64,000 nt of DNA from Telopea speciosissima (lineage: Eukaryota > Streptophyta > Magnoliopsida > Proteales > Proteaceae), in the NCBI RefSeq assembly GCF_018873765.1, contig NC_057925.1, positions 44,919,010-44,983,009 on the forward strand, in the 5' to 3' direction. Shown one piece after another: positions 1-1,313 of the stretch; position 1 is the first letter of the stretch; each line of letters starts with the position of its first letter. Position numbers and translations under genes: made by a program. The notes below the pieces were generated by a model. The model had not been told where the DNA came from. It made no database searches and saw only the letters and a list, made by a program, of their open reading frames with translations.

Positions 1-281
1 TTTTGAAAAACACATGAGATGGTTTTTTGAATCACCTTGAACCTCAAACCAAACCCACCCGACCGGTTCGGCTCATCAACCCAAACCCAAAATCATGGAA
101 GAACTGTTATCCTGTCAATCTCCAGTCGTCGGACCTCAAAATCTCCGACAGAAAATCAGCCGAGACCCTTGCAGCCGAGGAATTTTCTAGTAGATCCACT
201 CTATGAAGTTGAAGACGAATTCCAAGCCTAAATGGATAGAGATCTCGCTGGCAGGCGATTCGGATAAGGAGAATCATCTGA

Positions 282-557
282 TCACTTGATGCATCTATTG
301 CAGAGGAACTGAGTTCGATCCGACAGAAGCTGGAACGGTTGAGATTAGAGAAGGAAAAGACAGAAGAAATTGAGAGAGAAGGAATCACTCTTTCCCTCAA
401 ATGCGCTGCTTGTGGTTGCCATCGCAACTTCCACTGTCGTGAACCTGAAGAAATCACTCTTTCCTTCGATTTCCACCACCACCCTCCATGGATTCTGCTT
501 CGATTTACACGGACTACTTCCAAAACCCTAAAAAAAAAAACAAAAAGGGAAAACTGA
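282..557 (+). pseudogene. Chimeric open frame: coiled-coil segment fused to a ZF-HD zinc-finger fragment
   Basis: One open frame of about 92 codons. It opens after a stop near 279 with a heptad-like charged helix (EELSSIRQKLERLRLEKEK) of unknown origin. It then runs into SLKCAACGCHRNFHCRE followed by DFHHHPP. The CAACGCHRNFH block is the signature C-terminal half of the ZF-HD / mini-zinc-finger dimerisation domain; the N-terminal half and the homeodomain are absent. There is no convincing ATG. It lies inside the 1-1200 TIR element, so the likely history is that two captured fragments became joined in frame. Whether it is transcribed cannot be judged. The ZF-HD match is strong; the coil's source is unknown. 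Confidence 0.6.
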
Positions 558-1030
558 AAGAGCACAAGTTCCTGCCTTGATATTCGAGAAACCCACACCT
601 AACTCCAAATCCAACTGTATCTTACCAAGATTTCTTCTTTCATTACTCACAGTAGCAGTAGCAATGGCAGTGGAACTGAAGAGATGAGCGACAAAAGTGA
701 CCACGGCACATGCTCTATTACTCTTACACCGGCTAGCCTTTCCCTTACTACCTGAACCTGACTTGCTCTTACCCAAAGGTGACGAAGAAGCGGAGGATGA
801 AGACGACGATGATGGAGAAAAGATCGGTAACAGAGAAGGGATCTCAAAATTAGTCCGAGCCTTAGACCCCCTGAGTCTCCTCTCCGCCGCATCGTAAGCC
901 CTCGCCGCCTCTTCAGCCGTATTGAACGTGCCAAGCCAGTGCCGACACCGCCCTACACGAACACAAATCTCAGCCGACCACCGACCCCACGGCCTCTTCC
1001 TCACCCCTTCGTAACCTTCTTCACTGAATC
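528..1030 (-). pseudogene. ERF/AP2-domain transcription factor fragment with EAR-like motif
   Basis: The frame reads [18 protein letters not shown], then [20 protein letters not shown] and [13 protein letters not shown]. This is an almost complete AP2/ERF DNA-binding domain with the usual WLG and the Ala/Asp pair typical of ERF-type proteins. A serine-rich stretch follows, and near the C-terminus LDLELG resembles a DLNxxP/LxLxL (EAR) repression motif. The frame is closed upstream at 1029-1031 with no ATG between that stop and the domain. The next block upstream, the His/Pro-coding GGT/GGC repeat, reads in other frames. Part of the domain ([10 protein letters not shown]) departs from the usual strand-turn sequence. 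Because it sits inside a TIR element, I read it as a captured, 5'-incomplete copy, not a working gene. Confidence 0.65.
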
Positions 1031-1063
1031 AACCCCGACAATGCTTCCTGCACTTTGGCTGCA

Positions 1064-1104
1064 GCGGTGGCGGTGGCGGTGGCGGTGGTGGTGGTGGTGG
1101 TGGG
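1064..1104. repeat. (GGT/GGC)n trinucleotide repeat
   Basis: GGCGGT units pass into GGT units for about 40 bp. On the minus strand it would code for Pro, Thr or His runs. It lies just upstream of the ERF fragment, where such repeats are common in ERF N-termini. Confidence 0.85.
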
Positions 1105-1313
1105 TTGGTTTGAGTGAGTTTGAACTGGTCGGGTAGGTTTGTTTTTAAGCCTAAGGTGGTTCAAACACGATATGATGAAGTTTTCAAAATATTTTGAATT
1201 TTTTTAATCTCACCCATTGGATGGTTGTCAGGCCAGGTAGTGCAGTGAGAGGTCATGGAAATAAGATGGAAGTACAAAATTTGGAAGTAGAGGAGTCGGA
1301 TCAGAGGTATTTT

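Follow-up and report, generated by a model that had tools for sequence, protein, structure and literature searches.

The first 1303 positions of the window (the whole 64,000-nucleotide stretch of Telopea speciosissima DNA that was analysed, C10:44919010-44983009 of genome G000, which comprises 823 Mb; position 1 is the first base of the window) contain most of a 1406-bp transposon whose left end lies 103 bases beyond the window edge and whose last base is position 1303. This transposon is very probably (about 0.94) a non-autonomous Mutator-like element (MULE) of the Pack-MULE kind, carrying pieces of host genes as passengers. Its interior is a mosaic of segments in mixed orientation from three unlinked host loci: a coiled-coil-like locus (on C1 or C8), a ZF-HD gene (on C3), and an ERF gene (on C2). 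The captured pieces are most likely passengers without protein function, since the open frame that fuses two of them has no ATG, and the sister copies do not preserve it.

A first-pass annotation, made from the window alone, had already read this region as a transposon, and the TIRs, target site, empty sites, and donor genes described below show this reading to be right. The inverted ends of about 88 bp that it reported are real and represent the inner part of terminal inverted repeats (TIRs) of about 200 bp each. The inverted match pairs -101..87 with 1102..1302 over 202 columns at 78% identity (E ~4e-41). Positions 1 to 87 of the window are thus the inner part of the left TIR; extension to the left, as had been proposed, recovers the remaining, outer 103 bases beyond the window edge (L009 4898-5000), with the outer terminus GGATCTGACTCCTCT. 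The right TIR occupies 1102 to 1303. The outer ends read GGATCT...GGATCA in the window copy (copy A) and GGATCC...GGATCC in copy B. Where a 9-bp target-site duplication (TSD) had been anticipated, the window copy has one of 10 bp, of which 9 of 10 bases are identical and 8 bp match perfectly; its right copy, GAGGTATTTT, lies at 1304 to 1313, and its left copy, GGGGTATTTT, lies outside the window. In addition, two paralogous empty sites (L042 and L043) contain the target GGGTATTTT once and match the joined flanks end to end, at C7:9951048-9951359 (88%) and C7:7580742-7581037 (81%). The right flank is part of a high-copy repeat (1964 first-look candidates, of which the best 40 were scored), indicating that the element inserted into repetitive DNA. 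Farther along the window, an open frame on the minus strand (1994 to 2230) contains the motifs GVRQGCPL and FADD and resembles a degenerate non-LTR (LINE) reverse transcriptase.

In the excerpted text of PMC4858842, Pack-MULEs are recognised by two TIRs of one family that face opposite ways within 20 kb of each other and by a TSD of 7-11 bp adjoining both ends. The window copy has such a TIR pair, and a duplication within this size range is present at both of its ends. The element also carries parts of host genes that are not of transposon origin, two of which Pfam recognises as AP2 and ZF-HD_dimer. For the part in the window (1-1303), no transposase is present: none of the 12 frames of at least 60 codons that overlap this part gives a transposase match in Pfam, the only matches being AP2 and ZF-HD_dimer.

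Besides copy A, three further copies are present in the genome, all at different sites. Copy B, on C4, is 92% identical over 1430 columns and is flanked by a perfect 9-bp TSD, CACTTATTT. Copy C, at C9:41.68 Mb, is 86% identical to the window copy and has no clear TSD at its ends. Copy D, at C9:47.51 Mb, is 1795 bp long and rearranged, matching the window copy at 80-87% in three pieces; its TSD (8 of 9 bp) lies a few bases off the right end. By inverted match, the TIRs of copy B are 85% identical, those of copy C 84%, and those of copy D 80%. The 21-letter terminus is found 381 times (196 + 185) at a threshold of at most 1 mismatch, compared with 0 times for a reversed-pattern control. In a survey of 14 elements, a TSD of 8-10 bp with at most 1 mismatch was present in 7 (the left end of L024 is poorly placed), and a TSD with fewer than 2 mismatches was absent in 7.

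Related TIRs also bound a sibling family of elements of about 2 kb (L023:1433-3442, L025:2153-4164, L026:2073-4084, L027:1866-3877, L024, and L040:186-2076), which are 83-97% identical among themselves and whose ends are mostly GGATCCACATCCT. Two of these, L025 and L026, are flanked by 9-bp duplications without mismatch. A Pfam scan of three L025 frames gave no match over the cut-off, and across the TIR family 10 open frames from 6 elements likewise gave none. Single ends of this TIR family, at L033:950-1132 and L034:673-855, adjoin two similar open frames, presumably sugar-transporter-like, which are separated by 24 kb on C10. Among the best 40 of 448 TIR candidates and the best 150 of 826 PF10551 candidates, no element combining these TIRs with a transposase was detected, and inspection by eye of the matches listed (about 100 of 381 termini, 40 of 448 TIR, 150 of 826 PF10551) gave no enclosing pair. 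Two pairs lying within 10 kb, one on C7 and one on C3, are among the matches listed; the TIRs face away in both. An autonomous partner was found neither in a comparison by eye of the TIR, terminus, and PF10551 matches listed nor in L033-L035 and L041.

The order of the captured pieces can be read from left to right on the window coordinates. Positions 92 to 383 (plus strand) are a fragment of a coiled-coil-like host gene, 85% identical to C1:28.85 Mb (L014 4745-4423); this locus or a related one at C8:64.47 Mb (L017) is the candidate donor, and L014 and its protein have no Pfam match. The fragment carries the donor ATG (window position 95), and the donor frame is broken, leaving 31 codons from there. 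A 12-base filler, ATCACTCTTTCC, follows at 384 to 395 (plus strand). It is identical to the element's own bases 69 bp downstream and creates a 21-nt direct repeat (378-398/447-467). Positions 392 to 481 (plus strand) contain the second half of a ZF-HD dimerisation finger, 92% identical to C3:11.83 Mb (L020 4348-4259), and positions 482-502 lie outside the donor-matched segments. The ERF (AP2/ERF) fragment, on the minus strand from 503 to 1045, runs from the AP2 domain to near the C-terminus with a little 3' sequence. It matches the ERF gene at C2:63.52 Mb at 91% (558-1045, L013 4001-4500) and 89% (503-559, L013 4535-4590). Finally, positions 1042 to 1103 (minus strand) are a second bit of the same C3 ZF-HD gene, from its N-terminal region and partly simple repeat (89% to L020 4609-4670), which is inverted relative to the finger bit.

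The protein domains agree with these assignments. The first-pass annotation placed an ERF/AP2 domain on one strand and a ZF-HD finger on the other, and Pfam bears this out: AP2 (PF00847, E 1.1e-13) matches residues 5-54 of the minus-strand frame at 531-1028, that is, window positions 867 to 1016, and ZF-HD_dimer (PF04770, E 5.6e-9) matches on the plus strand, covering only profile positions 31-54 of 55. The same two domains are found in the donors L013 and L020. The former is open from ATG to stop (241 codons), and the latter has a long open frame. The search for parent genes in the same genome that had been suggested thus succeeds for both ERF and ZF-HD; the second ZF-HD bit and the host-locus origin of the coil piece go beyond the earlier description. 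Divergence between the captured pieces and their donors is about 6-18%, and the longest exact matches of copy A to the donor loci are 43 nt (ERF), 32 nt (ZF-HD), and 53 nt (the C8 coil locus). Elsewhere in the genome, a truncated ZF-HD copy at C9:15.10 Mb (L021:4189-4458, minus strand) contains the finger's second half with 91% identity to the captured piece, and degenerate ERF-like fragments related to the captured ERF piece are present at L016, L018, L019, and L022.

The four copies differ by internal deletions and by joins with microhomology or self-identical filler. In copy D the coil-derived sequence extends to L014 4101 and is supplemented by a piece lying 3.7 kb beyond this in the locus, and the finger is also longer (L020 4391-4260), suggesting that this copy is closer to the older state. 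Copies A and B share the coil-finger join made through the 12-base filler. Copy C lacks the finger, and its join falls at CTGAAGAAA, which is common to both partners; the ZF-HD/ERF join is a short overlap, AGCA. From these microhomology and filler marks, we infer copying of a repair type. Gap filling or template switching may have brought the fragments into an element resembling copy D; rearrangement would have followed, with mobility supplied in trans by a MULE transposase whose gene lies elsewhere.

The open frame of about 92 codons joining the coil to the half-finger, described in the first-pass annotation, does exist: it spans 282 to 557 on the plus strand, with 91 codons and a stop. A ZF-HD-derived microProtein needs a complete zinc-finger dimerisation domain in a translatable frame. 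Here only profile positions 31-54 of 55 are present, and the frame as read in genomic, unspliced DNA contains zero ATG codons. In copy B, two extra bases put coil and finger in different frames; in copy D they are also in different frames; and in copy C the finger is absent. The fusion is therefore in frame in copy A alone (1 of 4 copies), and hangs on a 2-base difference from copy B. The longest ATG-started frame wholly inside the element has 81 codons, is antisense, and differs in frame from the AP2 frame. The idea that 282-557 would yield a chimeric mini-protein disturbing ZF-HD dimers can point to the 91 open codons, to a ZF-HD_dimer score above the curated cut-off, and to a precedent, the mini zinc finger proteins, which according to PMC13087070 are ZF-HD proteins without a homeodomain. 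Nevertheless, given the missing start codon, the half domain, and the sister copies, such a product is improbable in the extreme, and the element's sequence and copies do not support it.

The AP2 frame is a different case, as it is open in all four copies, with 166 (A), 171 (B), 170 (C), and 157 (D) codons. Furthermore, the four-copy alignment contains 26 gap events, yet 561-1011 is free of them, where a uniform spread would place about 8; several of the 26, however, coincide with simple repeats, the ends, or the rearranged junction. Together, these observations are a weak hint of constraint and are what would favour retention of the ERF part as a truncated, dominant-negative AP2 protein. However, the frame lacks an ATG in A, B, and C, and the only ATG in D lies behind the AP2 domain. 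When only substitutions are simulated under neutrality, the four frames all stay open with P 0.21. Within the family, the frame has accumulated 10 synonymous and 36 nonsynonymous changes against a neutral expectation of 13.5 synonymous (P(10 or fewer) = 0.17), and pairwise dN/dS values run from 0.031/0.053 (A-B) to 0.081/0.054 (B-D), compared with 0.237/0.759 for the ERF donor versus its paralogue L015. The changes in the AP2 fragment thus fit neutral evolution, with no synonymous excess. Relative to the donor, two 6-base deletions are common to all four copies. A single base is missing just before the AP2 domain in A, B, and C; A and B also have a one-base insertion 20 bases before the domain; and D lacks two bases at the start of the domain. 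Substitution counts, simulation, and donor comparison leave a selected AP2 frame unsupported, and a retained dominant-negative protein is very unlikely. An equally slight chance attaches to the broader proposal that the family spreads an always-open, truncated ERF/AP2 fragment that would repress the intact donor through an upstream exon or antisense RNA. The possibility that an expressed ERF gene extends across the locus was also rejected: in the window copy the AP2 frame starts right after a stop, behind the single-base deletion seen against the donor, and inspection by eye of the frames listed between 1303 and 2500 (Pfam was applied at 1164-1349) revealed none that looked like ERF.

Somewhat better placed, but still unlikely, is the possibility that the captured fragments would give rise to siRNA or antisense RNA tuning the ERF, ZF-HD, or coil donor genes. 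Copy A shares exact blocks of at least 21 nt with the donor loci (9 with ERF, 3 with ZF-HD, 6 with the coil locus L014, and 2 with the coil locus L017), and in maize, the excerpt of PMC13317346 describes donor genes affected by siRNA from captured sequences. Against this, the pieces have diverged from their donors to the extent given above, and copy C has no 21-mer in common with the ZF-HD donor. The ERF piece is on the opposite strand from coil and finger, which means that any transcript reading through the element would run antisense to one donor. With this arrangement, if the element were transcribed, antisense or small-RNA (siRNA) effects on donors would be likelier than a peptide.

Taken as a Pack-MULE with host-gene passengers, the element has close counterparts. 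The Pack-MULEs of rice (Jiang 2004, cited in PMC13317346) and of other plants are, in the excerpt of PMC13317346, likewise non-autonomous MULEs with TIRs and a TSD, fragments of host genes, and several copies; by that description, the Telopea element differs from those of rice only in detail, namely in the captured genes (coil, ZF-HD, and ERF) and in the plant. The chimeric putative genes of rice Genic-MULEs, as presented in the excerpt of PMC4858842, are open frames from several parents and mostly neutral. The fused frame resembles them in combining several parental sequences, but they overlap annotated intact transcripts whereas the frame here is a prediction that lacks a start codon. The excerpt of PMC8277862 treats the multicopy share of Pack-MULEs in rice, gap filling, and the rarity of coding Pack-MULEs. 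It also describes the Drosophila Ssk-FB4 Pack-MULE, in which, as in the present element, one chimeric structure recurs at several positions, each time with its own TSD of 9-10 bp; unlike the Telopea element, read here as a carrier of passengers, Ssk-FB4 is described as coding and potentially functional. A full-text literature search of limited coverage returned no report joining a Pack-MULE with ZF-HD, nor any on Pack-MULEs in magnoliids.

A multi-donor, multicopy Pack-MULE is a well-described kind of element, and this one lends no support to a new regulatory peptide. Its main relevance is as a caution for annotation, in which gene prediction may mistake the AP2 and ZF-HD pieces for genes. What the locus offers is a well-resolved case of multi-donor capture in a plant, with four copies that record the rearrangements, candidate donors for each piece, and empty sites.
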